Source: Tricholomella constricta (lineage: Eukaryota; Basidiomycota; Agaricomycetes; Agaricales; Lyophyllaceae). Taken from it: a stretch of 64,000 bases of DNA. Position numbers and translations under genes: made by a program. Below are positions 2,714 through 63,841 of this stretch, piece by piece. The notes below the pieces were generated by a model, which saw only the letters and a program-made list of their open reading frames with translations, was not told the DNA's origin and searched no databases. The stretch covers positions 434,001-498,000 of the forward strand of contig JAACJP010000011.1 in the NCBI GenBank assembly GCA_013368375.1. The letters are read 5' to 3'. The first letter of the stretch is position 1, and every line of letters begins with the position of its first letter.

Positions 2714-4018
2714 ATGTCAACTTCAACCACCCCCCCCCACACGGTACAATTTATACGGCAAAATGGTTCAGGCCTCCCCGAAATCGGAAGAGGAAGTGGT
2801 CCACCCGCCGATCGCGCCTCTGATGACGATCCCAGGGAGAATGATGGCGGAAACAACAGAATCGGCAGCGCAGATACAGTCGGAGGACCCTCCGAGCCAG
2901 ATCAGCCACAACCTCCAGGCGAACCCGCCCAAAGACAAGGTGGCCGGACCGGCGAGGAAGAGAGCCCTCCAAGCAACACACCCGAGCCCCAACTGCTCCC
3001 CAGAAACATAGGAAAGAAAACTACCCGAGGCTCCCTTAAGGTAGCAAGCTTAAATATCAAAGGCGGAGGATCAAACTCCTCCAAGGACAAGTGGCAGCAC
3101 ATACGACAAATTCTTCGTGACCAAGGAGCTGATGTCCTTGCAATACAAGAAACACACCTTAACGAAGCCAGACGAGACCAGCTTCAATCGCAGTTTGAGA
3201 AACATATGCTCATTATCTCGAGTCATGACGAAGACTCACCGAATGCCAAAGGAGTCGCCTTTGTATTAAATAAACGAACAACCAAATGGAAAGAAATTAC
3301 TACCACCCGCCTTATACCGGGCAGGGCAATACAAATCGAACTGCCATGGAGAGAAGGGGCAACAACGAGGCTCCTAGCCGTCTACGGCCCTAACCCCCCC
3401 GGAGAAAATGCTACATTCTGGTCCGACCTAGAAAATAAGTACCGCACAGAAGGCCTTAGTAAACCTGACATCATGATGGGGGATTTCAACGTAGTGGAAG
3501 ACTCACTAGACCGCTCACCCCCCCACCAAGACCGCCGACAACCCACTGAAGCACTCGCAAGCCTCAAACAATACCTGAATCTCCTAGATGGGTGGCGCCA
3601 AGAAAACCCCACCAGAACAGAATACACCTTCCGAATGGGAAACACGACGACAGAATCCAGAATCAACCGGATATATGTCTCAAGTAAGATCCTTAAAAAG
3701 AGCCACAAATGGGAAATAAACACCACTGGCATAAGCACAGACCACAAGATGGTCTCTATGGAGTTCCTTGACAATCGCAATGTCTACCTGGGCAAAGGCC
3801 GCAAGCAAATACCGCTACACTTGCTGAAGAACAAGAAAGTCATGGCAAAATATAAAACAATCTGCCTAGATTTCGCAAACACCCTTGAACGTAGCCAAAC
3901 CGAACGCACCAGGGAGGAAAATCCGCAGACTGTCTGGGCAAGCTTCAAGCTTAAGACAAAGGCCTTCTTCATCCACCACGCTAAAATGGAGAGCTCAAAA
4001 CTAGACAAGCAGATAGCT

Positions 4019-4023
4019 GCAAC
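4019..4023. repeat. 5-bp target duplication of element A (left)
   Basis: GCAAC just before the left LTR is repeated at 10391-10395 just after the right LTR. A 5-bp duplication is normal for Ty3/Gypsy integrases. Confidence 0.93.
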
Positions 4024-4359
4024 TGTTAGGGGAACACCTGTTTGGTGACCACGTGACCATCCGATTCCTCGGACGAGCACGTGACCGACCGCTCCCCAGA
4101 TGATCGCGATCCCGACCCCGACGCTCCGCCCCAAGCATCGGTGTACATACTTATAACTTCCTGTCGTTACTTCCCCTTCCAGCGCGCGCCCGATCCCGAT
4201 TCCCGACATCCCGACGTCGGTCACCCGACCTCGTGCGCCTGCACCCTGAGCCACGAGGATCGGACAGCGTCGGGAACGTGTACATACACGCGCCGCTGCC
4301 CATCCGTTATCATTTACGTACCATACACCCCAGAGAGCCGGCCCTCAAGTAGTTACTCG

Positions 4360-17846: not shown

Positions 17847-17943
17847 TTCCCTCTAGCCGACTTGAACGACTGACCTCGTCATATCATATAGATATATTGG
17901 ATATTAATACTAGTGACGCGCTCTACCACTGAGCTAAAAGGGA
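17847..17943 (-). tRNA. tRNA-Thr (AGT), copy 1, with intron
   Basis: The reverse strand folds as a cloverleaf: acceptor TCCCTTT with AGAGGGA, D arm TAGCTCAGTGGTAGAGC, anticodon stem CGTCA/TGACG, and T arm AGTCG-TTCAAGT-CGGCT. The loop reads CTAGTA, giving anticodon AGT (threonine). An AT-rich intron of about 26 nt follows the base 3' of the anticodon. Its intron differs from those of copies 3 and 4. Confidence 0.85.
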
Positions 17944-18026
17944 GTTTGACATACTCGGGACACCATATTTCTTGTACATTGTGGTCTAGCTAGGTCTGCG
18001 AGTGAGGAGAAAAGGGATCTGGACAG

Positions 18027-18106
18027 TTCCCTCTAACCGACTTGAACGACTGACCTCGTCATAACACAAATCACAGCAGATTATACTAGTGACGCACTCT
18101 AGGGAG
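18027..18106 (-). pseudogene. tRNA-Thr (AGT) pseudogene, copy 2
   Basis: The T arm, anticodon stem and AGT loop are kept, but the D arm is missing: the sequence jumps from GACGCACTCT to AGGGAG. It lies in the same orientation and same kind of repeat unit as its neighbours. Confidence 0.75.
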
Positions 18107-18201
18107 TTGGACATACTTGAGGACGCCATATTTCTTGAACATTGTGCTCTAGGTCTGCGAGTGAGAGAAAAGGAAAAAGTTAATTTGAATGTTCCGGGAA
18201 G

Positions 18202-18295
18202 TTCCCTCTAGCCGACTTGAACGACTGACCTCGTCATATTGTACAGGTGTATTGCCAGATACTAGTGACGCGCTCTACCACTGAGCTAAGAGGGA
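18202..18295 (-). tRNA. tRNA-Thr (AGT), copy 3, with intron
   Basis: All four arms pair, including a perfect 7-bp acceptor (TCCCTCT/AGAGGGA). The anticodon is AGT with a short intron after it. Flanks repeat those of copy 4 (GTTAATTTGAATGTTCCGGG upstream on the plus strand). Confidence 0.87.
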
Positions 18296-18391
18296 GTTTG
18301 ACATACTCGGGACGCCGTATTTCTTGAACATTGTGCTCAAGGTCTGCAGAGTGAGAGAAAAGGAAAAAGTTAATTTGAATGTTCCGGGAAG

Positions 18392-18485
18392 TTCCCTCTA
18401 GCCGACTTGAACGACTGACCTCGTCATATTGTACAGGTGTACTGCCAAATACTAGTGACGCGCTCCACCACTGAGCTAAGAGGGA
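18392..18485 (-). tRNA. tRNA-Thr (AGT), copy 4, with intron
   Basis: It is nearly identical to copy 3, with a perfect acceptor and T arm. One change in the D loop (GTGGTGGAGC) leaves the arm intact. It ends a tandem array with units of roughly 175-190 bp. Confidence 0.85.
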
Positions 18486-18916
18486 AGTTGAAAAATCCAT
18501 CGGACGCCGGCATAGATGGGCCATGGCAATTGCAAGGATTCGGAATTTCCGAGATACTTGCGCCTTGCAATATACTTAACAGAATTCGAAAGTATCAAGT
18601 ATCAAGTACATCACACTGACTACGTACAGTAACACTCAACACTCTACACACAACATTCGCAGGCCTCGCACATAAGTATGTATATAAACAAACCATAAAC
18701 GTCGATCCCGGATTCCGTTCCCCTTTCTCTAACAATTTCTTTCCGTGGGCACATGCACGCCTCGCCCACTCATCCTTCTCCCCCCCCTCCTTGTTGTTAC
18801 CTGCCCCGCCCAAACAATGAACTTCGACTCGCTTCATACTGACTTCTTACTTCTTTTCCTCCACCCTTCCCTTTCGCTCTCGCGTTCACAAACAAGCCAC
18901 GCTCACCACTAACCAC
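18486..18916. other. Intergenic region between the tRNA array and the HET-C gene
   Basis: No coding sequence seen. It probably holds the 3' UTR of the minus-strand HET-C-like gene. Confidence 0.5.
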
Positions 18917-46301: not shown

Positions 46302-46522
46302 TGTAAGGGCGCTTACTATCTTATCGACTAATCTGATCTAATCGTATCTTATCGACACGATTATGCTATTGTTTGGCAACACCTTCCGGTGTTGCCTATT
46401 TAATCCTTTACATTACATAATTAAAGAGTAGACCTTGTACACCTATACGTAGCAATCGACAGACTTGTCAAGCTTACGTCTAGCGTGCACAGCAAGGTCC
46501 CCAATCTTGTAACTCCGTTACA
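46302..46522 (+). repeat. Element F 5' LTR (right end uncertain)
   Basis: The start is fixed by the match with 57572. The first 72 bases match the right copy; the end is a guess at TTACA 46522. A perfect 9-bp hairpin (GGCAACACC, loop TTCC, GGTGTTGCC) lies at 46375-46396, followed by TATTTAA. I found neither a tRNA-type nor a convincing self-type primer site. Confidence 0.5.
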
Positions 46523-48991
46523 TTTTTTTAAGCTACCTTGCTTTCTATTGCTGCGTACCCACGACATTACGCAGAACCACATTCCATTTAGAACACCCAT
46601 CATCAAAAGAACCCACGAGACCCAGACCCAATGACACCAACTCCCACATCCGGAAAGAGCCGAACTCCGGTCTTCGAGGATGCGCTCGCAGCGCATCCTC
46701 CATCACAACTTCCACTGCAACCAGTGGAAGTCGGATCAGTCGCTGGTGGACAAAGTCCACCAGCGCAGAATACACTAGGATTAGAATCGGAGGAACCTTG
46801 GCCGATAGCAAGCACCAATGTGCCGGGGAGCTTGGCCGACGAATTGGCCAGGTCATATCGATCTGGCCCCACGGCAGGAAGCAGATGGCCAGACAGCCGT
46901 CTGTCAAGTAGAGCGTTCGGGGCGTCCACCCTGAGCATAGTCAAGAGGGAGTCGGACGAAGACGACTTGTCTGACCCTGAGGCCAATGAAGAAGAAGCCA
47001 GCGATAGGGAATTGCTGGCGCTAAAAGTGAAGCAATTCTGGGACACCACCGATGTTGTTAGCGAACATCGACGAAGACGACTAGAGGAACGAGCGGATAG
47101 GCTCGTTCTACGATCAACCGGAGCACAGTCCGTTGGAGAAATGGTCATACAGGAGTATGCCGACCGATACTTGGAAGCGCTGTCCGTAGTAGTTACGGAA
47201 TACAGGAAGAAGTACCCTAAGGGAACTTCGAATTCAGCAGTCAGCTCGATCGCTGGGACTCCTATACCTAAGAAAGCTCCGCTCAACAAAGGAAAAGGTC
47301 GTTGGGATGACCTTTTCACCCCGCAAGCAGTGGCCTCGGGATCGAACCAGCCTCTTGATGAGGCTGCTATGGCAGTATCTGCGCTGCATCAAGCGCGCCA
47401 GTTAGGAGAATCTGACGACGATTATCGTCGTCGGGCCGCGGCAGCGAAACGCGAAAGAATGACTCGCGAAGAGCACCTTGCGCAACCACAAGGTTCCCGA
47501 TGGGCCCCTGTTAGTGAGTCTACATTAGACCCACCCACTGAGCGTAAGGACACGAATTCGCAACTAGCTGGCACTGAAAGCGTGCCAGCTATTCAAGTAC
47601 CTCCGGAGGCTAAGGATGGCCGTGTTCCATTAGCGAAAGAGTGGAACAACCGGATCGCTTACCAGCGTCTGAGAAATGCTGATCTATCACGGAGCAAGTT
47701 CACGAATTATGACGACCAAGGAGTCGTCTTTGAAGGACATATGCCTGTGGATGAGATGGCGAGGCAATGGGCCTCGCAAACTCAAGGTTCGGATGGTGGG
47801 TTAGTAACTGGATTGGAAGCCGTCGAAAAGAATAATTCGACGGCGATAGCTAACGGTCGTCGAGACATGCGGGTTCGAATAAGTGAACCCGCGGAATATG
47901 CGCAGCCTCGAGTTCAGACTCGAGGCTATTCAATGCCTGCTCCGATCCGCCGGAGTCAATCAATTGCGGATGGAATACATGCTGCCGGAGAGCAGCATAA
48001 AACTAAGATGCATGAGCGATTGCATCAATTAATGCACGAGCATTTGTCAGTACGACTGTCGCTTCCGGACGGGATGAAATCTCGGCGTGCGGACTCAAAG
48101 TCCGTAGGCACTTATAGTGGAAGTGCAAAGTTCGGCGACCTTGAAGAATGGCTGTCGAGCCTCGTCGTGATGCTGGCAGTGAGCCAGTTTGGAGGAGAAG
48201 AACGCGACCAAGAGCGCGTTCTGATAACATCCGAGTTTCTCGATGGCGAAGCTCGAAAGTGGTATAATCGCCACGTTATACATGTGAACCGCGAGAAGCA
48301 GTTCTGGACGTTTGAAGACGTCGTACTTGGATTGTATGACCGGTTCGTGCTACCCTCAACCATGCAAGATGCTCGTAACAACTTTAATGCCGTTACTTAC
48401 TCGGCGAGCAAAGGAATACAAGGTTTATATGATGACCTTGTGGACCATGCCATGAATATGGCAGCAAGAACGGACGATTGGACGTTCCTGGAGAAATTCC
48501 TCAAGACACTTCCGCGTGAGATGCGGAAGGCATTATTCGATGACGGGCTATCACCCGAAATCAACACGGCCCAAGAGTTCCTAGCGGTGGGCTTAGCACA
48601 CCAAGCCACCCAGAAGACGGCTGATTACTTTGAGCGGAACATAACCGCTCAGCGAAGTCAACCGAGTCAACCGCGGAAACCAGATGGGGGGCGAGTAAAC
48701 ACCCCACAAAACAATTTCAACAGGACTCGACGTGTGTTTGGCGCACTTAATGAAAAACCATACGCCAAGCTAGCGTATCAGGATCAACCGGGACGTGGAG
48801 AGCAAAAGCCCCACGTCGAGAAACCAGCGATGAAGACGGGAGATCGTCCGCGTTACGATCAGACCAAAAACCACGATCATCACAACCACCCCCCGGGGGA
48901 AGTGTGCTTTAATTGTGGGAAACTAGGGCATTTTGCAAAAGATTGCAAACAGCCCAAGAAACAGCGAGCATTCCTACGGGCCGCACGTACA

Positions 48992-48996
48992 GCGGC
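48992..48996. repeat. 5-bp target duplication of solo LTR B
   Basis: GCGGC here is repeated at 49471-49475 on the other side of the solo LTR. Confidence 0.92.
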
Positions 48997-49470
48997 TGTT
49001 AGGGGAACACCCGTTCACGCCCTCCGACGCTCACCAACTGTTCCCCGACACGTGCGCTCGCTCCTGACCGATCGTGATCCCGACCCCGACACTCTGACCC
49101 AAGCGTCGGTGTACATATTTACCTTACTCACTTCCTGTCATTCCCCTCGTTTCCCTGTTCATATTCCCGATCACCTGACATCCCGACAACGGTTACCATC
49201 AGACAGCATCCGGAACCCACTCATCATTATCACCTGTCATGGTTATCACATGTCGTTATTATCACATGTACAGTACACTATGGAGAGCCTGCCCTCATGT
49301 ATCACACTTGTATATAGCCGGCCCCCTGGCATCTGGGAATCCTTTACACTATTCTCTTTGGAATCCCCTTTGCCAGGTAAGCCTTATTTACCTCGTTACA
49401 GTACATCAATATAACTTTGGATTCCCCTTTGCCAGTACGACTAAGCTCTGCTCTAAAGGTCGCCCTAACA
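48997..49470 (+). repeat. Solo LTR B of an element-A/D-type chromovirus
   Basis: 474 bp, TGTTAGGGGAACACC...CCCTAACA, related to the LTR of element A and closer to that of D (it shares CCTTTACACTATTCTCTTTGG). It has no internal region, so it is the product of LTR-LTR recombination. It sits inside gag-protease of element F with a GCGGC duplication. Confidence 0.95.
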
Positions 49471-50193
49471 GCGGCACCTGACGCAGCAAGTGAGGCGGAC
49501 GACGAAGATACTTCTCCCGAGGACCCGGACGGACGAGACAATGGACGCCCTGAGACCGAGGCGGACAATGAAGACGAAGGCGATGAGTTCGTAGATATGG
49601 AGGTCTACGAAAATGAATACTATGCTCGGGACGATGAGACCGAGCGTATGTTTGCAATGACAGAAGTCATTGCGTCAGAAGAACGCAATGATAAACCACC
49701 AAGTCGTAAAGTGAAAGTGCGGACGGGTAGGGACAAGATTGCTCGTCCCGTAGTCCCGATAAAGGACAAGGAGTGCCTGGTCACCTACATTAATGTAGGT
49801 GGACATGAGGCTTGGACCCTCTGGGATTCCGGGAGTACGACTACCGGACTTACGCCGTCATTCGCTCAAGTGGCCGATATTCGAGTGTTTCCGTTGGAGG
49901 ATCCATTAATCCTCCAGCTCGGAACTAAAGGAAGTCGGGCCACAGTAAATTTTGGCACGACGGTGGAAGCCGTTCTTCCAGGGTTTAAAGGCAAGGTTTA
50001 CATGGACCTTGCTAACTTTGATCGATACGACGTGATTATAGGCACGCCGTTTATGCGCGCAAACAACGTCGTGCTGGACTTTAACCGTGACGAAGTTGTC
50101 GTCAATGGAGTCGCTACACCAGCGACTAAAGTAAAAATGGAGGATACCGATGGCCGAGTTAGACGCCATCGGTCATTGGAGAAACGAAGAGAA

Positions 50194-50199
50194 TGACTA
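50194..50199 (+). promoter_or_regulatory. In-frame TGA-CTA between Gag-protease and Pol of element F
   Basis: The frame reads GAA TGA CTA AAA and stays open on both sides: upstream through the protease and downstream through 119 codons to the first ATG of pol (50551) and on to 54096. UGA-CUA is a known strong stop-codon readthrough context in eukaryotes and some viruses. This could be programmed readthrough or a single nonsense mutation. Confidence 0.55.
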
Positions 50200-53100
50200 A
50201 AAGTCACAGTAGAAGATGATGATGATCCTGATAACGAGGGTAGGCCGATAAACAGCCTACCAAAGGATCACCCAGCACTTCTATTATCCGATGAAGAGTT
50301 TCAAGAAACTCTTAAGGAGGGGGATAAGCCACCTCCGAAGAAGAGAAAACCCCAACGACAACAGCAGAAGGCACAAAACGAGCCTTCGAACGAACGAGCA
50401 CGGACTCACGAGCCATGCGAAGAACGTCAGCGCGATAATGAAGCGCGTAAGACGAGCGGGGCCGATAAGGATACGGAATCAGAGCCGTATACGAATGCGA
50501 GTAATCGATCATTTTGGGATAGACCAAATCCACATCCACAATATGAGTGGATGTTCGACCCACGGATGCCGCAAGAATGGAACGCAGTAATAGCGTCAAT
50601 GCGGGCTCACGAAGGAAGAAATGTAGGCACGCGAGGACAAGCGTACCGAAATCCATGGCCTGAGGAAGTATCGGAGCCAACGGAAATGAATTTTTCGGTG
50701 AATATACAACGGGCTAAACGGCCGTTGTATCGGTTACCAGTGAAGGATGAGAGTGACTTTGCTCTCGTAAAACTACGAGCTAGGTTTGATGTTAAACCTA
50801 GCAATAAAGACACAGCGCACATTCGCGCTGCAAGAACGGTGAACGGAAAAGGTAAGGCACCCAATGGAGGCCTTACCGCGGAAGATTATCCACGACTTCG
50901 CCAGCAATGGCATGACGAATTCGAAGATATGGTGGGTGGTACGAAACAACAGCTACCACCCTGGCAGGAAGTCAATCACGAGATTACTCTCGTCGACGAT
51001 GAGAAACAGTACCAGTACCACGCGCCGAGGTGCCCAATGTCCCTTCGCGAGGAATTCTACGCGAAGGTCAATCGGTATACAGATTCTAAATGGTGGGAGC
51101 CTCGTTCGGTAAAGCAAGCAGCGCCGCTGCTATGCATCCCGAAAAAAGACGGCTCCCTGAGAACACCCTTGGACGCACGGCAGCGTAACGACAATACGAT
51201 CAAGGACGTTACGCCCTTGCCAGACCAAGAAATCATTCGCGAGGATGTTGCCAGAGGGAAGATACGATCAAAGATTGACTTAACGGATGCGTACGAACAA
51301 GTACGCATCCTCGAGAAGGACGTACACAAGACCGCCTTTGCAACGATAGCGGGAACGTACGTTAGCAACATAATGCAGATCGGGGACTGTAATGCCCCCG
51401 CAACATTTCAACGATTAATGACGTCAATTTTTCGGGACGTCATTGGGAAGTTTATGCATGTATACTTGGACGACATATTCATATTTTCGAACTCCATCGA
51501 AGAACATGAAGATCATCTTCGAGTAGTGTTCGAACGATTACGCAAACAGTCCCTTTATTTGAAGTGGAAGAAATGCGAACTATATTCGGATCGCGTCGAT
51601 TGCCTTGGTCATATAATCGACGACCAAGGAATTCACCCCGACGCCGATAAATTGGCACGGATTCGCGATTGGAGGATTCCACGGAATTACAACGATATAC
51701 AGCGATTCGTTGGACTGGTTAATTATCTGGGTCAATTCCTCCCAGATATATCCGCGTACACTGGGCCACTAATGGCGATGACCGAGAATGGGTCGCCATT
51801 CTATTGGAGACCAATTCATCAACGATGCTTTGAAATGATAAAGCATATATGTTGCACGACGCCAATTATTCGGCCTATTCAACCGAAGACAGACGAACCA
51901 ATTTGGGTTATATGTGACGCCTCCAAGTCAGGCGTCGGTGCAATGTATGGTCAAGGACCTACATGGATCCAAGCTCAGCCGGCTGGATTCATGTCCAAAA
52001 AATTCACGAATGCACAGCAGAATTACGCCGTGCATGAACTCGAAACCTTAGCTATCCTCGAAGCATTACTTAAGTGGGAGGATAAACTTGTGGGCTATAA
52101 AATCCACATCATTACCGACCACAAAGCCCTCGAATTCTTTAAGACCCAGGTGAATTTATCACCTAGGCAGCGTCGATGGATGGAATACATGTCGCGATTT
52201 AACTTCGACATTACCTATGTGAAAGACGAACTGAATAAAGTCGCCGACTGTCTATCGCGATATTTCGAGAGCGATAACCATCACGATCGTTACGACGTCC
52301 ACGACTTCGTAGCTGCCAATGCTAGAATCGATCCTACTGGTGAAGATTTACCAGTACCACGATACCATGAAATCGTGGAAAAAGTAGTTGAAATTCGAGC
52401 GATGAAGGACGTAGAAATACGTCGAAGCAAGCGTCTTCAAGAACGCCAGGAGGATCGAGATGTTGAAGCCCAGATAATGGAGGCTGCGGCACCAAGTATC
52501 GCATCCGGACCATCATCACACCTTCAAAAAAGCCAGAGGCCAACCGAACGGGAACGTACGGTCGGAGATATGGTCCTCGGAAGGGACACAGTTGCCCCTC
52601 CCCCAGACAAAACGGACGAAAAGATCCGTAACGACGTTATCCTGGGATACCCAAAGGATAAACTATTTTCAGTGATTCTCACTAACCCAACGGACTTTCG
52701 TGCGTTCACTACGAAAGACAATCTGATTTGGACTACGAACGCTATAAATGATAGTGTTCTATGCATACCGCGAGAACCCGAGATCATCACGTCAATTGTT
52801 GAGCAAGCCCATAAAACTATGGGCCATTTCGGTGCCGAACGGACTACTGAATATATTCGACGATGGTATTGGTGGCCATCACTAGCCACGACTGTTCGTA
52901 CGTTTTGTAAAACGTGCGAGTATTGCCAACAGATCAAGACGTCAAATCAGAAACCGTTAGGGAAACTACATTCCCTGCCAGTACCCACTAAGCCTTGGGA
53001 TTCTATCGGAATGGACTTTATCGGTCCATTTCCAGAATCAAAGGGATATAACTACCTATGGGTAGTAATTTGTCGTATGACGAGTATGGTGCATATGATA

Positions 53101-54096
53101 CCCATACATACGACGATGACGGCAGCCCAATTATCATGGGTATACCTACGGGAGATCGTCAGGTTACATGGCCTGCCAAGCTCGATCGTAAGCAACCGAG
53201 ACTCTAAGTTTACCTCGCGCTGGTGGCGCGAACTACATAAATTATTAGGAGCTAAGCTTCTAATGTCGACATCTTTCCATCCTCAGACGGATGGACAGAC
53301 GGAGCGAGCCAATCGTAGTATTGGCCAGATATTTCGCGCCGTTGTAAGGCATGACCAAAAGGATTGGGTAGATCGTATACCCATGGCCGAGTTCGCGATA
53401 AATGCGAGCGTATCGGCTACCACCAAGTTCGCTCCATTTGAGTTGAATGGTGGATACATGCCATCCATGTTGAAAGAGATACGCTCAGACAGCGTAATAC
53501 CAAAGGGAATTCGGGAATACGCTGAACGCGCATTGCAGAACATAGCAGAGGCGCATGACGCTATAATCGAAACGCGCGTATTTCAAACGCGCGAGGCAAA
53601 CAGGCGTCGATCCACTGGTCCGGAAATAAAGGGGGGTGACTTGGTATATTTATCTACCAAGAACTTGAACCTTCCCAAGGGACGCGCCCGGAAATTATGT
53701 CCGAAATTCGTCGGGCCCTACAAAGTATTGAAGGCCATGCCAGACACGTCGAACTATACGCTGGAATTACCTACGGCGCTTATGGAGCGTCGAATACATC
53801 CAACATTTCACATATCGCTGTTGCGCCCATACTACGCAACAAACGATGCAATGTTCCCCAATAGAACTCACCCGGAGCCCTATGACTTTGGGGCGCCGGA
53901 CGATCACGAACGGTTTGTCGAAGAGATTTTGGGCCATAGATGGACCCAAAATAATAAAGTGGAATACCAAGTTAGGTGGAGTCTAGGTGACACCACCTGG
54001 GAATCGCACAACAATTGTAACAAGTTAGCGGCATTGGACCGCTACTTGGAATTGCAAGGGGTGGGCAGCGCATCGAGGTTGCCGCGACGAACCTAG
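50197..54096 (+). CDS. pol: Element F Pol: RT, RNase H, integrase, chromodomain
   Basis: The frame is open from the TGA at 50194 to TAG at 54094-54096; the first ATG is at 50551. In order it shows a reverse transcriptase (KKDGSLRTPLDARQRN, YLDDIFIFSNS near 51460), an RNase H (ICDASKSGVGA, TDHKALEFF), an integrase HHCC finger (HKTMGHFGAERTTEYIRRWY, CEYCQQIK) and its DDE core (MDFIGPFPE, SNRDSKFTSRWW, FHPQTDGQTERANRSIGQ). A chromodomain closes it (VEEILGHRWTQNNKVEYQVR...TTWESHNN). No stop or shift was seen inside. It is a chromovirus polymerase clearly different from that of element A. It has no ATG close after the protease, which fits expression as an extension of Gag-protease. Confidence 0.92.
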   Translation, partial: LKVTVEDDDDPDNEGRPINSLPKDHPALLLSDEEFQETLKEGDKPPPKKRKPQRQQQKAQNEPSNERARTHEPCEERQRDNEARKTSGADKDTESEPYTNASNRSFWDRPNPHPQYEWMFDPRMPQEWNAVIASMRAHEGRNVGTRGQAYRNPWPEEVSEPTEMNFSVNIQRAKRPLYRLPVKDESDFALVKLRARFDVKPSNKDTAHIRAARTVNGKGKAPNGGLTAEDYPRLRQQWHDEFEDMVGGTKQQLPPWQEVNHEITLVDDEKQYQYHAPRCPMSLREEFYAKVNRYTDSKWWEPRSVKQAAPLLCIPKKDGSLRTPLDARQRNDNTIKDVTPLPDQEIIREDVARGKIRSKIDLTDAYEQVRILEKDVHKTAFATIAGTYVSNIMQIGDCNAPATFQRLMTSIFRDVIGKFMHVYLDDIFIFSNSIEEHEDHLRVVFERLRKQSLYLKWKKCELYSDRVDCLGHIIDDQGIHPDADKLARIRDWRIPRNYNDIQRFVGLVNYLGQFLPDISAYTGPLMAMTENGSPFYWRPIHQRCFEMIKHICCTTPIIRPIQPKTDEPIWVICDASKSGVGAMYGQGPTWIQAQPAGFMSKKFTNAQQNYAVHELETLAILEALLKWEDKLVGYKIHIITDHKALEFFKTQVNLSPRQRRWMEYMSRFNFDITYVKDELNKVADCLSRYFESDNHHDRYDVHDFVAANARIDPTGEDLPVPRYHEIVEKVVEIRAMKDVEIRRSKRLQERQEDRDVEAQIMEAAAPSIASGPSSHLQKSQRPTERERTVGDMVLGRDTVAPPPDKTDEKIRNDVILGYPKDKLFSVILTNPTDFRAFTTKDNLIWTTNAINDSVLCIPREPEIITSIVEQAHKTMGHFGAERTTEYIRRWYWWPSLATTVRTFCKTCEYCQQIKTSNQKPLGKLHSLPVPTKPWDSIGMDFIGPFPESKGYNYLWVVICRMTSMVHMIPIHTTMTAAQLSWVYLREIVRLHGLPSSIVSNRDSKFTSRWWRELHKLLGAKLLMSTSFHPQTDGQTERANRSIGQIFRAVVRHDQKDWVDRIPMAEFAINASVSATTKFAPFELNGGYMPSMLKEIRSDSVIPKGIREYAERALQNIAEAHDAIIETRVFQTREANRRRSTGPEIKGGDLVYLSTKNLNLPKGRARKLCPKFVGPYKVLKAMPDTSNYTLELPTALMERRIHPTFHISLLRPYYATNDAMFPNRTHPEPYDFGAPDDHERFVEEILGHRWTQNNKVEYQVRWSLGDTTWESHNNCNKLAALDRYLELQGVGSASRLPRRT

Positions 54097-54222
54097 AATG
54101 TGGCGCGGTCATGTGATCACGGCGATCAGAAAAATTACATAACCATCAAAAGTTATGACAGAAGGTTAAATATGTTTTGGCGCTAGGACGCGCAACCAAA
54201 AATTTCAACCAACAACCACAAC

Positions 54223-57195
54223 ATGTACCCAACCGCAGGAGCAAATTCAAGCAACGACGTGACTCGGGGCGGCGACAGCCGCACCGACTATCAAAATATG
54301 GCCTCGGGATCGAGTCCAAAAGGGGAGGAGGTGCAGGGACGCGCGGAAAGCGCGCCCCCGCCCCCAACCTATATGGGCGTGCAGCCCCAAACATTTCAAT
54401 ACCCATCGGTTGGCCACATGAGCCAACTGCCCCACCAGGGGCAACCACCCCATCAGGGGCAACAACTATACCCTATGGTTGGCCACATGAGCCAACCGCC
54501 CCAGCAGGGGCAACAACCACAGACGGGTGGGTTCTACCCACCGTCGATGGCATATCAACATATGCCATCAATGCAGAGCTTCATGGGGTACCCACCACTG
54601 ACGTGATACCCCCAAATGCCCGCCCCAATCGTACCGCAAAATACGCGGTACAACGAGTCAGAGAAAATGGAGGTGGACGACCAAAGTCGTCAAAAAACAC
54701 CTACTCCACCGGCGCAAGTGGCGCGCAGCGAACCGGCGCGGCAATATGTCGCGCCATATGCAGACGAACAAAGAGGTTCGTTTGCGTCGAGTTCGCGGAG
54801 GCCGGCAGACGATCGCGCAGCGTCGTCTGCGTCAAGTTCGAGGAGACCATTCGCAGACGATGGTCTCCTTTCGTCTATCTTGGACCGAGTGGAAGACGCG
54901 GGTATTCACCGCAAGTTTTGTGATTTCTTGGACGACGGGATGGCGCAGCTGGTTGTAACCCAGCTGCTTGATGCGTACGATGGAGTTCGCGCGGACTTGA
55001 GACGCGTGAAGGCGAGAGAGTCGGCCATGGCTGAGCAACTCAGCCTGGCAAAAAAGCGACCGGCAGTGGCGTCGCCAGATCGCGGGGAGGGACCATCGTC
55101 CCGACCCATGAAAAGACAGCAGACCGAGGTGCGGCGAGAAGAACGCACCTTATATGAACCCAGGCGTCAGGAACGACGCCCGGAACAAGAGTATCGGCGG
55201 TTTGACCGCCATCCCGACCAAGAAGTGTGGCGTGATGAGCGCCCACTTGATTATGGTCCTCAACGAGAGGAGCGTCGCGAGGACCGAGGGACGCGCGAAG
55301 TGCGTCCCTTACCGGCTCGAGAAGTCGAGCAAAGGGCGTCGACATCGTCGACATCCGCGGTGCAGGCACCGCAACAGCAACAGATAGCGGGAGCATTACT
55401 CCCACTACCGACCCCGGGAGAAAGCCGGGTACGGAACCCGGAGAGAGGTTCCCAAAAGAAGGAACCTGTTGGCAAGTATACCTTGCCGGCACCATCGCCT
55501 GCACCACCCACTACGATGGTGCAGCCCCCATCGCCTCCGCCAAAGGGCAAAGGCAAACAAAAGGCGTCTGACCCGTACGCCGAATTTATGGATGAGTCGG
55601 ACTACGGCGAGTCCTCCGACGACGAGAAACCCGTCAGCAAGAAGAAGGCTGCCGGGCAGAAGCAGCATCGCGAGAATATGGCTCGCAAAGCTGAGAAGGA
55701 GGCGCCGGGACGGATCCCTGAAGAGCTTGGGGTGGTCTTTATCAACGGCCGCCACGAGCGGGACAACCGCTTCTGGGATATGGTGTCGCGGACGGTATAT
55801 GTGTCGTCCGCCCAGAATCGTGCCTTTGCGCTAGGCACAGCAGCTCGCATCTCAGAGAGCGAGCTAGGGACGGGACAAAACTCCCGTCCCTCAGATGGAC
55901 GGCTGTATGCCGTCGCACCACGTGGGTTCCCAATGAACCCCCGTGAAGTTGATCAGCTCTATGAGCTGATCAATAACCGACGCCATGGGGTGAGGGATGA
56001 AGAGCGGGCCGAGGCCTTTATGCTCTTCAGAGAATTCCGTCGGATCACCCTATCGGTCGCGCCTCACTTGCGCGACCGAGCCATGGCTCGTGCAGCCATG
56101 GACGAATTCCGAAGCGTCTCACGACCGTTCAGTGAACGGTCACCCATCTGGAATGCCCCGGTCATTAGACGGCCGGGTAAAGCATTCGAATATCGGCATG
56201 ACAAGCCGACACGAGGAGCTGGTCTCCCCCAACCCGGCCCAGCTCATGCATTGGATGTCGAACATTGGTGTCGACATATGATTCACCATGGGCGTATTGG
56301 TTCTAAGAACCAATATGGAGGTATCGTAATGGACTACCGGTTCCGCGTTCATCGTCGCGGGACCTGGGGCTACTTACTGGCGAACGTATTGTCGCCAGTA
56401 ACTCATAGTATGCGGGCATGGTTTATGCGAATTTTCGCAACCATCACCGCACGGCCATACTTCTATGCAGAAGCGGTGGCGGCCCATAACGAGGCCAACC
56501 CTGATCGGCCGTTCACGCCGATTACCGGACCCGAGGTTATTATCCCTCGGATCCAACCTACCGCTCCCGAAGGGCGGCTGACGGAACAAGGTGTCCTACA
56601 ACACCTTATTAACTGTGGTATTCCAATTAGTTGGATAAACCACAGCTATACTTATGGTCTACACTATTTAGACCATAACTACTCTACTGCAGGTCCTCAT
56701 AAGGACCTGTTCCACAATGTTGACGACGATCGCGTTCGTCGACTCGATCAATTGGGCGTGCCACCCGCCATTTCGGAATGGGACGGGTGGTACCATCCCA
56801 CCACCGACGACATCACGCGCATTCAAACGCTAATGCGCTTGGAGTTTCAGAACGAGGGGCTGGATTGTTTATCCAGCGTGGAATGGATGTTTGTGGGTGA
56901 AGACCCACATTTCCGAGAACTCCGTGTTCGGAGAGGGGAGTTTCCCCCTCCGGACCTGCACACTCCCGCTCCATCGGGATCGACGTCTACCAACGTCGAA
57001 ATGGCAGACCCGGCGGCACTCACACCTGCCCCCGCGACACCCTCCACAGTCGTGGCAGCTCCAATAGGAGCTACCGAAACCCAAGTGGACCCCGTGTCGG
57101 CCCTCACAGGGCCTCTATCACTGGCAGTGATTACCACTAGCCAGGGTCCGGTGGAATCCAACCCCACCGACCCTGACACAGTGATGGAGTCATAG
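54223..57195 (+). CDS. Element F third ORF, function unknown, with one in-frame TGA
   Basis: ATG 54223 opens a Pro/Gln-rich stretch with repeats around GHMSQ (near residues 65-105). A TGA at 54604-54606 interrupts, and the same frame runs on from 54607 to 57195 (ATG at 54616, 859 residues). The middle (to about 55730) is Arg/Glu-rich and disordered. The last ~430 residues look globular, with motifs such as NGRHERDNRFWDMVSRTVY, MNPREVDQLYELINNRRHG, WCRHMIHHGRIGSKNQYGG and SEWDGWYHPTTDDITRIQ. There is no signal peptide or membrane span, so it is not an envelope protein of the usual kind. Its DNA carries the same inverted-repeat tiling as gag and pol, so it belongs to the element and is not a fresh capture. 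Confidence 0.75.
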
Positions 57196-57571
57196 GTCGG
57201 GGAGACAACTTAATCCCCCCGTCAACGAACCGACCTCGACACGCAGGAGGTATCGTCGGGACGACCGCCATTGTCAGGTGTAGACCACCTTACTCCCGAG
57301 GAGCAAACCGCAGGTCGCGTACTCAAATATACGCAACACCGGATGTCATCAATCCCAGGCCACCTCGAGCGGCACTTGGAGGCCGTGTAGTGGAACTATT
57401 GTCTCCACTATGTATTCGGTCATGAATACGTACCAGTAATACGTATTTCTGTGCAGGCGATATTGGGTGTAGGTCGCCGGGACCTACACCCTCTCTCTTG
57501 CCTTAATTTTATTATTACTTATTGCATTACTCCCTGGTGAAGATCGCTACTAGCGATCTTAAAGGGGGGTA
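57196..57571 (+). other. Element F 3' non-coding region with polypurine tract
   Basis: It keeps the inverted-repeat tiling (for example AAGATCGCT...AGCGATCTT at 57540-57560). AAAGGGGGG (57561-57569) lies just before the right terminal repeat, as expected for a polypurine tract. Confidence 0.7.
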
Positions 57572-57643
57572 TGTAAGGGCGCTTACTATCTTATCGACTA
57601 ATCTGATCTAATCGTATCTTATCGACACAATTATGCTATTGTT
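57572..57643 (+). repeat. Element F right LTR, truncated
   Basis: 72 bases match the start of the left LTR with one seen change (ACACGATT versus ACACAATT). The next bases (57644-57690) do not match the left LTR. Confidence 0.8.
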
Positions 57644-58052
57644 GATCGGAGAAAACGATGAACCTTCGTTCGAGGAGTGTTCTATCGAAGGCCGGTGAGT
57701 CTCGATGTGCTCAAACCAGTGTTTGGTTGCCCCCGCAGGTTCTCTTCTAACACGACTATTTAGATCGTACTCATTGTCTTCAATCTATTTGATCTGTTCG
57801 AACTCGCCGAACGCGAAAAACGAAGCATTTGGCTTGCTGATTGAAGTGATTGGCACGGTCGATCATCGCAAACGACATCGGCGCGTGCCATCGAAGATAT
57901 CGCCACTCGTAACTTTCGATCGAGCCTCAATCCCTGTTTCGTTTTCTTCGGGTGTGGGTGTGGAGGTGTCTCAGCTTGTGCTGATCTCCCCCACGCTGTC
58001 AGCACTGTGTCTCTTTTCTGATCAAGTGACAACCCTTCTAGCCCGGTACCAT

Positions 58053-62509: not shown

Positions 62510-62623
62510 ACCTAAGACCCGGCGAGGCCGACCGATCAAGCTTCCGCGTCGAAACACGTGTCTGCTACATGCAACCCGTCCAACACGCGCCCGCTCCGAT
62601 CATCGCCCCAGCCCCATCTTGAG

Positions 62624-63841
62624 ATGTCCGAATTCGGTGATTTTGACATGCCATCGTCTCCCCCTGCGCTTACGCCAGAAGAGCGACTGGGGAGCCTCGA
62701 AACCACGATATCGGCTCTCTCCCACACCCAAACCTCCAACTCGGCCACCCTGGACCGCATCTCCTCTCTTTTAGATACCCTCATTTTGGGGAACCCCTCC
62801 GCTGCCTCCCCAGCAGCATCTACGACCCCCGCGACGCCGGCGCAACCCTCGCCGACGTCTCCCCCTCCGCGATCAGGATCGCACATTCGGCCGTCGCCTC
62901 CTCCCACCTACGATGGCGCACGATCGGGCGGACGTGCCTTCTGGAATGCGTGTCAGCTCTACTTCTCGCTGACCACCGGGCAGTTCACCGACGACCACGC
63001 CCGAATTAGCTGGGTGTTGTCGTTCATGCAACACGGTCGCGCTGCTGACTTCGTCGGTCGCGTCTTTCAGTGCGGGTCGGTGAAGCGCGTGTTCCCGACC
63101 TGGGACGACTTCGTATCGAACTTCGAGAAGGAGTTCTTCCTGTTTGACGAGGTCGCCGACGCCGCGCTCATCCTCGAGTCGACGGCGTATTTCCAGAACG
63201 GGCGCACCATCGACGAGTACATAGACTCGTTCAAGGCCCTGTGGGTCAAGGCCGACTACCCGGATGGTCGCCACCTGGTCCTCAAGTTCCGTCGGGGCAT
63301 GGACCCGAAGCTTTCGAAGCGACTCGGAAGCATCACCACGGGTCGGCCCAACGACTCCAAGATCGAGGACTGGCTAGCGATCGCCCGCTCCCAGGACTTC
63401 ATCATGAGGACTGAGGAGGACTTCCACCGTCGGACACCTCCGACCATCCCGTCGGCTAGCCGCCCGACCGCCCTCGTCCCCGTGCACCCAGTCGCGCCCG
63501 CTCTCCACTGGCGACCTTCTGCGCAACCAGTTGCTCCTGTTCGTGTGTCGGCTCCGACGCATGTCGCGCATGCCCCCCGAGCGCCAGCTCTTTCTCCCGG
63601 TGTCCCTATGGACATTGATCGATTCACCGGTCGCCCTGTTCGCGACGACAAGTGCCGTCGGTGCAAACAACCGGGGCACTTCTGGCGTGACTGTCCATTG
63701 CGCTTCGACGTGCGCCACATCATGCCGGAGGAACTGGATGAGCTGATCATGCAGCTACTGGCACGCAAGGATGCGATCCCGGCTGACCCGACTCCCGAGT
63801 CGGCCGACCCGACCGCCTTGGCCACGGAAGAGGATTTTTAG
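62624..63841 (+). CDS. gag: Element E Gag protein
   Basis: The protein from ATG 62624 starts MSEFGDFDMPSSPPAL and is 405 residues; an upstream ATG at 62558 is in frame but the homologous start in A and D is MSEFGD. It has the capsid-like domain (ARISWVLSFMQHGRAADFVG..., YFQNGRTIDEYIDSF, RRGMDPKLSKRLG), a Pro-rich linker and one CCHC knuckle (CRRCKQPGHFWRDC). It ends TTT TAG at a -1 frameshift signal like that of element A. Confidence 0.92.
   Translation: MSEFGDFDMPSSPPALTPEERLGSLETTISALSHTQTSNSATLDRISSLLDTLILGNPSAASPAASTTPATPAQPSPTSPPPRSGSHIRPSPPPTYDGARSGGRAFWNACQLYFSLTTGQFTDDHARISWVLSFMQHGRAADFVGRVFQCGSVKRVFPTWDDFVSNFEKEFFLFDEVADAALILESTAYFQNGRTIDEYIDSFKALWVKADYPDGRHLVLKFRRGMDPKLSKRLGSITTGRPNDSKIEDWLAIARSQDFIMRTEEDFHRRTPPTIPSASRPTALVPVHPVAPALHWRPSAQPVAPVRVSAPTHVAHAPRAPALSPGVPMDIDRFTGRPVRDDKCRRCKQPGHFWRDCPLRFDVRHIMPEELDELIMQLLARKDAIPADPTPESADPTALATEEDF

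Follow-up and report, generated by a model that had tools for sequence, protein, structure and literature searches.

A Ty3-like retrotransposon dense in short perfect hairpins, with signs of selection for local RNA folding

Genome-scale ordered RNA structure (GORS) has been described for RNA viruses, some persistent ones among them, and the purpose of such folding is still debated. The folding excess quoted for them in PMC7642675 is 7.5–10.7% for hepatitis C virus (HCV), 12.5% for human pegivirus (HPgV) and about 15% for SARS-CoV-2, the highest figure quoted for vertebrate RNA viruses being 23.4%. In the long terminal repeat (LTR) retrotransposons Ty3 and Ty1, palindromes in the 5′ part of the RNA are tied to dimerization (PMC11381356, PMC4974528), and the Ty3 RNA is portrayed as a mosaic in which a well-folded core makes up about 19.4% (PMC11381356). 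Here we report on element F, a Ty3-like LTR retrotransposon in a 64,000-nucleotide stretch of genomic DNA (the window), which comprises gag, a protease region (PR), pol, a third open reading frame (ORF3) and non-coding ends. We put at roughly 0.7 the probability that purifying selection acts on the RNA genome of F for local folding over its full length, a reading drawn from comparisons of sequences. Small stable hairpins with A-rich loops would then tile the RNA; the target of selection would be folding stability as such, not given hairpins or a motif, and most of the constraint would be borne by synonymous positions. An earlier note on this DNA had proposed that synonymous choice is shaped for local folding of the RNA, or of single-stranded cDNA, over the full length, which the stem density, far above shuffles, upholds and the test for compensating changes upholds in part.

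Stem density and folding energy

Unless another arm length is given, a stem is here a perfect inverted repeat with arms of at least 8 bp and a loop of 1–16 nt. By this definition, 54 of the 68 stems in the window lie in F. All 15 hairpins singled out in the earlier note were recovered in place, 13 of them with the arm length it had listed, while those at 56123-56141 and 57540-57560 have arms of 9 and 10 bp, one pair longer each. Its statement that hairpins run the full length also proved correct, stems being present in gag, PR, pol, ORF3, the LTR and leader, and the 3′ non-coding part. Stem counts in coding blocks were tested with three shuffle types, and the null quoted here comprised 200 codon shuffles preserving the protein, codon use and codon-junction dinucleotides. 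Against this null, gag (46631-48988) holds 12 stems versus 0.94 (shuffle maximum 5), the protease block 6 versus 0.46 (maximum 3), pol 15 versus 1.08 (maximum 4) and ORF3 (54616-57192) 16 versus 1.19 (maximum 4). Taken together, the coding parts of F carry 49 stems versus 3.7 in shuffles, an approximately thirteenfold enrichment that bears out the predicted excess over protein-preserving shuffles. Chance, codon bias and base composition, as an account of the stems, are ruled out by the three shuffle types (z of 8 to 21 in each of the four coding blocks) and have a vanishingly small probability; the nested solo LTR B, which is not F's own, is without stems (0 found, as had been claimed) and the neighbours have few. 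Element A and a long interspersed nuclear element (LINE) had likewise been described as lacking the feature, which holds for the LINE-type endonuclease open reading frame (ORF) at 2714-4045 (0 stems versus 0.08) and nearly so for the pol of element A, where the excess is at most slight (5 versus 1.6, z 2.6, shuffle maximum 8). A further control, the gag-like ORF at 62558-63838, has 0 stems versus 0.46.

The excess is a matter of arm length. Arms of 4 and 5 bp occur at the null level (374 versus 362 and 108 versus 102), and enrichment sets in from 6 bp upwards (69 versus 24 at 6 bp, 45 versus 8 at 7 bp and 24 versus 1.9 at 8 bp), the longest perfect arm in F being 11 bp. Loop sizes up to about 16 nt are over-represented, most of all at 7–8 nt, and the shuffle baseline is reached by about 20–30 nt. 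Within the span of F there are 104 stem centres (arm of at least 7 bp) with a median spacing of 81 nt, and imperfect helices are likewise in excess. The arms are richer in G+C than F overall. The loops are rich in A (0.35) and have no obvious motif in common, the most enriched 3-mers being A- or T-rich. All three codon-pairing registers are enriched among 94 stems (39, 32 and 23, versus 3.4–3.6 each in shuffles).

Folding energies point in the same direction. In 120-nt windows compared with codon shuffles, the four coding blocks show an excess of 22–26%, versus 2.5% in the pol of element A. We also ran a virus-style scan of the sense strand (350-base fragments, 10 dinucleotide shuffles, steps of 200 bases in F and 700 elsewhere), which is close to the virus protocol but coarser. 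The mean excess over F was 23.7% (51 fragments, solo LTR included), with 22.8% in gag (n = 10), 22.8% in PR plus pol (n = 22) and 30.5% in ORF3 (n = 13). By comparison, the excess was 1.7% over the 66 fragments of the window from 0 to 46.3 kb, 9.2% over the 9 of these that cover element A and its LTRs, and 7.2% in the 9 fragments between 57.7 and 64 kb. Inside F it drops to 5% and 4% over the nested solo LTR (windows from 49102 and 49302), and two further windows are low (8% from 53502 and 6% from 55502). Single fragments outside F, at 4201, 1, 61201 and 10501, reach 19–27%, two of the four lying at, or close to, LTR repeats that belong to element A or to a relative. In terms of predicted accessibility, the mean log10 value for 16-nt segments in pol is −3.66 versus −3.25 in codon shuffles (z −9.9) and is lowered also in ORF3 (z −7.7) and gag (z −7.6), while the pol of element A gives z +1.0; the plain mean is lowered less (z −2.9 in pol, −2.1 in ORF3 and −0.9 in gag).

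Variation among copies and relatives

A search of the 44.1-Mb genome (118 contigs), which is probably fungal judging by its size and its types of element, gave copy numbers that are lower bounds and placed F in a subfamily F1 with at least 23 other copies (96–99% identity over the pol stretch). More distant are subfamily F2 (93% identity over the same stretch), a reverse transcriptase (RT) piece, L046 (89.7%), and an F3 set (87.6% in pol and about 81% in ORF3). Beyond these stand family H, whose integrase region is 70% identical to that of F in amino acids across 634 codons, and family G, which is 60% identical in a 158-residue C-terminal piece of the integrase.

Variants within this collection differ in how they treat the stems. 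For positions 49483-54500, in 24 F1 and 5 F2 copies and with arms of at least 6 bp, singleton variants are spread almost evenly (stem/outside ratio 0.87; 48/964 versus 230/4036, p = 0.43), shared variants are depleted in stems (0.54; 31 versus 242, p = 4e-4) and fixed F1/F2 differences are depleted most strongly (0.33; 23 versus 291, p = 1e-9), the contrast between singletons and fixed differences having p = 2e-4 over all sites. When all sites are taken, the even spread of singletons rules out mutational cold spots in the pol stretch. At fourfold-degenerate sites, where stems with arms of at least 7 bp were compared with the sequence outside them, changes in pol number 4/56 versus 110/274 for F1/F3 (p = 4e-7) and 6/110 versus 98/571 for F1/F2 (p = 1e-3); in ORF3 they number 17/101 versus 120/331 for F1 and the F3 copy L070 (p = 2e-4), conservation being weaker against the copy L074.

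The predicted folding cost of synonymous changes in the sense RNA follows the same order. The 105 private variants cost +1.08 kcal/mol, close to random placement (1.03, z 0.3), whereas the 180 shared variants cost +0.14 kcal/mol (random 0.62, z −3.6) and the 204 F1/F2 differences −0.15 kcal/mol (random 0.57, z −5.9). The 227 F1/F3 differences cost −0.06 kcal/mol against a null that drew sites over the whole stretch, of which L073 spans 2301 of 5018 bases (random 0.54, z −4.9). Since private variants cost as much as random ones and shared or fixed ones cost little, stems seem to erode without constraint once a copy has inserted and to be maintained where lineages are still moving, and the cause looks like selection rather than mutation. 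The dozens of copies of F thus serve as a built-in natural experiment, with private variants giving a near-neutral spectrum and shared ones showing selection.

Compensating changes were evaluated in eight comparisons, which all contain the sequence of F and hence are not independent. Double Watson–Crick changes in stem pairs number 28, versus 11.8 ± 2.2 when partners were swapped among pairs of like type and codon position (reached in 0/2000 permutations). Without H and the second F3 copy, 14 such changes remain versus 4.3 (0/2000). ORF3 contributes 21 of the 28, and the F/H comparison, which alone gives p = 0.09, another 6.

Among relatives, the folding level reaches further than the perfect stems. 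Family H has perfect stems at the null level (arms of at least 7 bp, 1 versus 1.66 in shuffles) together with a folding excess over codon shuffles of 19.0% (z −9; 18.7% with z −5.9 in a second run). In family G, the piece L078 has 6 stems with such arms versus 1.3, reached by 0/200 shuffles, and the folding excess of G pieces is 14–22%. A far relative, L077 (about 46% identity), shows 5.4% (z −1.9) and the pol of element A 2.7% in the same comparison. The trait is therefore pronounced in F, G and H and weak or missing outside these families, each family-level value coming from one or two pieces of sequence. The earlier note had assigned the property to F and not to the locus; the neighbours indeed have little of it, but families G and H share it at least partly. 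Pair mass shared between F and H is 37.9, versus 38.9 ± 8.5 in an identity-matched null (one 1.9-kb piece), so that the two keep the folding level, not individual pairs, a pattern that has been reported for coronaviruses (PMC7642675). As a separate observation, the gag-like ORF at 62558-63838, which belongs to another element, has a folding excess of 9.8% in sense and 2.8% in antisense, with no excess of perfect stems.

Stem density was also taken in the flanks of 30 other 5′ ends, giving 8.9 stems per 10 kb versus 2.7 in the rest of the window, a difference to which some flanks contribute by being F-like (L046) or G (L041) pieces themselves. The first 1500 bases of the L051 flank, beside an element-A-like pol, hold 10 stems with arms of at least 7 bp, several of them in repetitive G+C-rich sequence.

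Competing explanations and possible function

The earlier note had allowed for a mutational cause such as template-switch repair. In this scenario, template switching by reverse transcriptase or a host polymerase perfects imperfect inverted repeats and the hairpins are useless. Such events yield arms like those in F, which are perfect in many cases, enclose short loops and reach 11 bp, coding palindromes in nematomorph mitochondria have been read in this way (PMC6649704), and a correction step within the retrotransposition cycle would spare host-side singletons too. However, template switching in yeast inverts spacers (PMC8604942), whereas of the 155 loops compared in F, 100 of which had changed, a single one is better explained by inversion. 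Over all sites, singletons fall in stems about as often as elsewhere, and F, unlike Nematomorpha, also has an excess of imperfect helices. Under conversion, pairs that are free on both sides should also drift as pairs, but pol shows few such changes: 34/36 (F1/F2) and 7/11 (F1/F3) of these pairs are unchanged and one double Watson–Crick change was seen, small numbers all. Finally, H has the folding energy without the perfect stems, which a palindrome-perfecting process alone would not give. Template switching is thus probably not the cause, and we consider it improbable as the full account. A wider caution follows: in transposon genes, conservation at synonymous sites and short perfect palindromes can arise through selection on RNA and not through replication errors.

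Several observations weigh against selection for folding of the sense RNA. The paired fraction in pol scarcely rises (0.55 versus 0.52), and the stem excess in G is weak in the L041 pieces. In ORF3, arms of at least 8 bp were not conserved between F1 and a second F3 copy (L075; 35/188 versus 285/1537), and likewise those of at least 7 bp. Fourfold singletons are also fewer in stems (9/161 versus 53/520, ratio 0.55, p = 0.085), and in this subset the contrast between singletons and fixed differences is not significant (p = 0.31). Double Watson–Crick changes number 0 in gag, 1 in pol for F1/F2, 0 in pol for F1/F3 and 0 in the RT piece; the compensation predicted for the arms hence stands as an overall excess over permutation, mainly from ORF3, and falls away in gag and almost entirely in pol.

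The remaining contrary points concern the molecule under selection, which could instead be single-stranded minus-strand cDNA, or both strands, for example through pacing of reverse transcription or strand transfer. Sense and antisense folding are near equal and variants show no preference for G-U, as this explanation would have it; against it stands a mild sense bias in several measures, though not all. The percent excess is 24.9 in sense and 21.8 in antisense for F pol, 22.5 and 21.1 for gag, 25.9 and 25.3 for ORF3, and 19.0 and 14.6 for H, and sense exceeds antisense in 2/3 of the G pieces also. By contrast, the G piece L078 has 14.0% in sense versus 15.2% in antisense, the two strands are level in the integrase part of F pol (21.1 versus 21.5%), the PR excess is larger in antisense (31.2 versus 22.4%), the z values of gag and ORF3 are larger in antisense, and in 120-nt windows the sense–antisense differences in z are about 0. 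Quasi-stems of 8 pairs are enriched more with one G-U than with one A-C (5.4 versus 3.8 in pol, 5.4 versus 4.3 in ORF3, 7.9 versus 4.0 in gag and 2.3 versus 1.2 in H, the counts overlapping). With 6 pairs the two are equal in pol (1.58 and 1.58) and reversed in ORF3 (1.44 and 1.72), which reverses also for two mismatches of one kind, and among shared stem variants there are 16 A-C and 11 G-U, the two kinds being about equal among F1/F2 differences when both directions are pooled. The effect of accepted variants is larger in sense in 3/3 classes, but the sense–antisense difference reaches only z −0.7, −1.0 and −1.8. Because perfect Watson–Crick stems fold in either strand, the tests come out nearly symmetric and the symmetry is weak evidence. 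The sequence comparisons place sense RNA modestly ahead of DNA as the selected molecule, and selection on cDNA or both strands appears quite unlikely.

If sense RNA is what is selected, the folded genomic RNA would be less reachable for antisense RNA, for Argonaute loaded with small interfering RNA and for RNA-dependent RNA polymerase. In the host genome, Piwi, RdRP and Dicer_dimer domains are matched above the cut-off, and RNA silencing is thus probably present. We favour a shield from silencing as the benefit to F by analogy with GORS transcripts, which gave a weaker RIG-I- and PKR-mediated response in transfected fibroblasts (PMC3950689), although this preference is tentative and falls somewhat short of even odds. 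The main alternative would be compaction for packaging: folding may have been selected because it helps a long RNA to fit into the virus-like particle, or because it makes the RNA more stable. An 11-kb RNA is shortened by local hairpins, which run its whole length, non-coding ends included; on the other hand, the A-rich loops offer no obvious common motif for Gag to read, and element A, of similar kind, does without such folding. We regard this second role as possible but rather unlikely. The fullest version of the silencing shield would have the clade of F, G and H evolve a folded RNA genome via synonymous sites, at a level equal to or above that of the most structured vertebrate RNA viruses, with F adding perfect hairpins too short for Dicer; as a whole this is doubtful. 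Should the shield reading be true, folding strength would be an arms-race trait that can be read from sequence alone in any genome. More generally, the purpose of pervasive RNA structure becomes testable in a host that carries silencing genes and that, should it be a fungus, lacks an interferon system.

Element anatomy and comparison with described systems

The features of F are collected in the table below. Its gene order, gag followed by PR, RT, RNase H and integrase, is that of Ty3/Gypsy elements (Metaviridae); the integrase core match (rve) has E 6.8e-07 and 29.9 bits, under the cut-off of 32.6. The LTR end was set where identity to the 3′ LTRs of six other copies stops, at LTR position 221-225, and 5-base repeats, GCATC and CAAGT, surround two other F copies as target-site duplications. 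The open part of ORF3 gave no match in Pfam (E <= 1), nor did its last 497 codons in PDB (E <= 1). Open ORF3 frames of about 980–1013 residues occur in many other copies, while the copy in the window is broken by a stop before 54616; a third ORF after pol is common to the F subfamilies, and family G also has an open frame there. At 57644, unrelated sequence replaces the rest of the 221-bp 3′ LTR, with an identical junction on contig C115, whereas the 6 other F copies examined have a full 3′ LTR.

Table. Coordinates of element F and of its stem clusters in the window
Feature	Position	Strand	Basis
Element F, Ty3-like LTR retrotransposon	46302-57571, plus 72 bp of 3′ LTR to 57643	+	
5′ LTR of F, 221 bp, TGTAAG...TTACA, hairpin 46375-46396 inside	46302..46522	+	LTR identity between copies
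gag ORF, CCHC zinc knuckle, hairpin-rich	46631..48996	+	domain match, shuffles
Three back-to-back perfect stems, arms 11, 10 and 11	46676..46765	+	
Solo LTR B, other family, nested in F	48997..49470	+	5-bp duplication GCGGC
Aspartic protease region (RVP_2)	49483..50193	+	domain match
pol: RT, RNase H, integrase zinc-binding, integrase core, SH3_Tf2-1	50197..54096	+	domain matches
ORF3	54223..57195, open part 54616-57195	+	in-frame stop precedes open part in window copy
ORF3 stem cluster: 55949-55973 (11), 55998-56029 (8), 56053-56079 (10), 56081-56101 (8), 56123-56141 (9)	55949..56141	+	
3′ non-coding region, hairpins 57425-57447, 57465-57491, 57540-57560	57196..57571	+	
Start of 3′ LTR of F, 72 bp only	57572..57643	+	comparison of copies

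No Rfam model matched in F at its gathering score, the only match in the window being a tRNA elsewhere. A search of viral contigs for relatives of F gave 2 stretches that fit a pattern, neither of them confirmed. Away from F, tandem repeat units 175–190 bp apart occupy 17847-18491; two were called tRNA-like with a 4-base anticodon by ARAGORN, and one has an Rfam tRNA match on the minus strand.

The earlier note knew of no described element like this, which is too strong for the principle, GORS being described for RNA viruses. As in GORS, the coding genome of F folds well below shuffled controls throughout, with many consecutive local stem-loops and short duplexes; paired sites vary less than unpaired ones (ORF3 against L075 excepted), and F and H have the folding level in common but not the positions of pairs. 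The per-gene excess in F, about 23–30%, can be set beside the quoted virus maximum (PMC7642675). Unlike the GORS viruses, F is a retrotransposon copied through DNA, many of its stems are perfect with arms of 8–11 bp, and stem arms are conserved within its subfamilies. With Ty3 and Ty1, probed by selective 2′-hydroxyl acylation analysed by primer extension (SHAPE), it shares an LTR retrotransposon RNA with structured regions (PMC11381356, PMC4974528), but the words z-score, covariation and synonymous are absent from the Ty3 paper, in which no shuffle-controlled excess or test of selection was seen (PMC11381356). The mitochondrial genes of Nematomorpha resemble F in having perfect inverted repeats in coding sequence, allowed by the degeneracy of the code; their palindromes differ in being far longer (to 284 bp), without an excess of imperfect repeats, attributed to a suggested conversion and not part of a mobile element (PMC6649704). 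Template-switch repeats in yeast are likewise short inverted repeats in coding sequence, but they are separate events in 39 genes with inverted spacers, whereas F has next to no inversion and is filled over its whole length (PMC8604942). A search of the open-licence literature by title and start of abstract, with most subscription papers and all bioRxiv preprints outside its range, found among the papers listed no report of selection for genome-wide folding in an LTR retrotransposon. What is new relative to these systems is GORS at such strength in an LTR retrotransposon, in the form of dense, perfect, short hairpins and with evidence of selection taken from the element's own copies.

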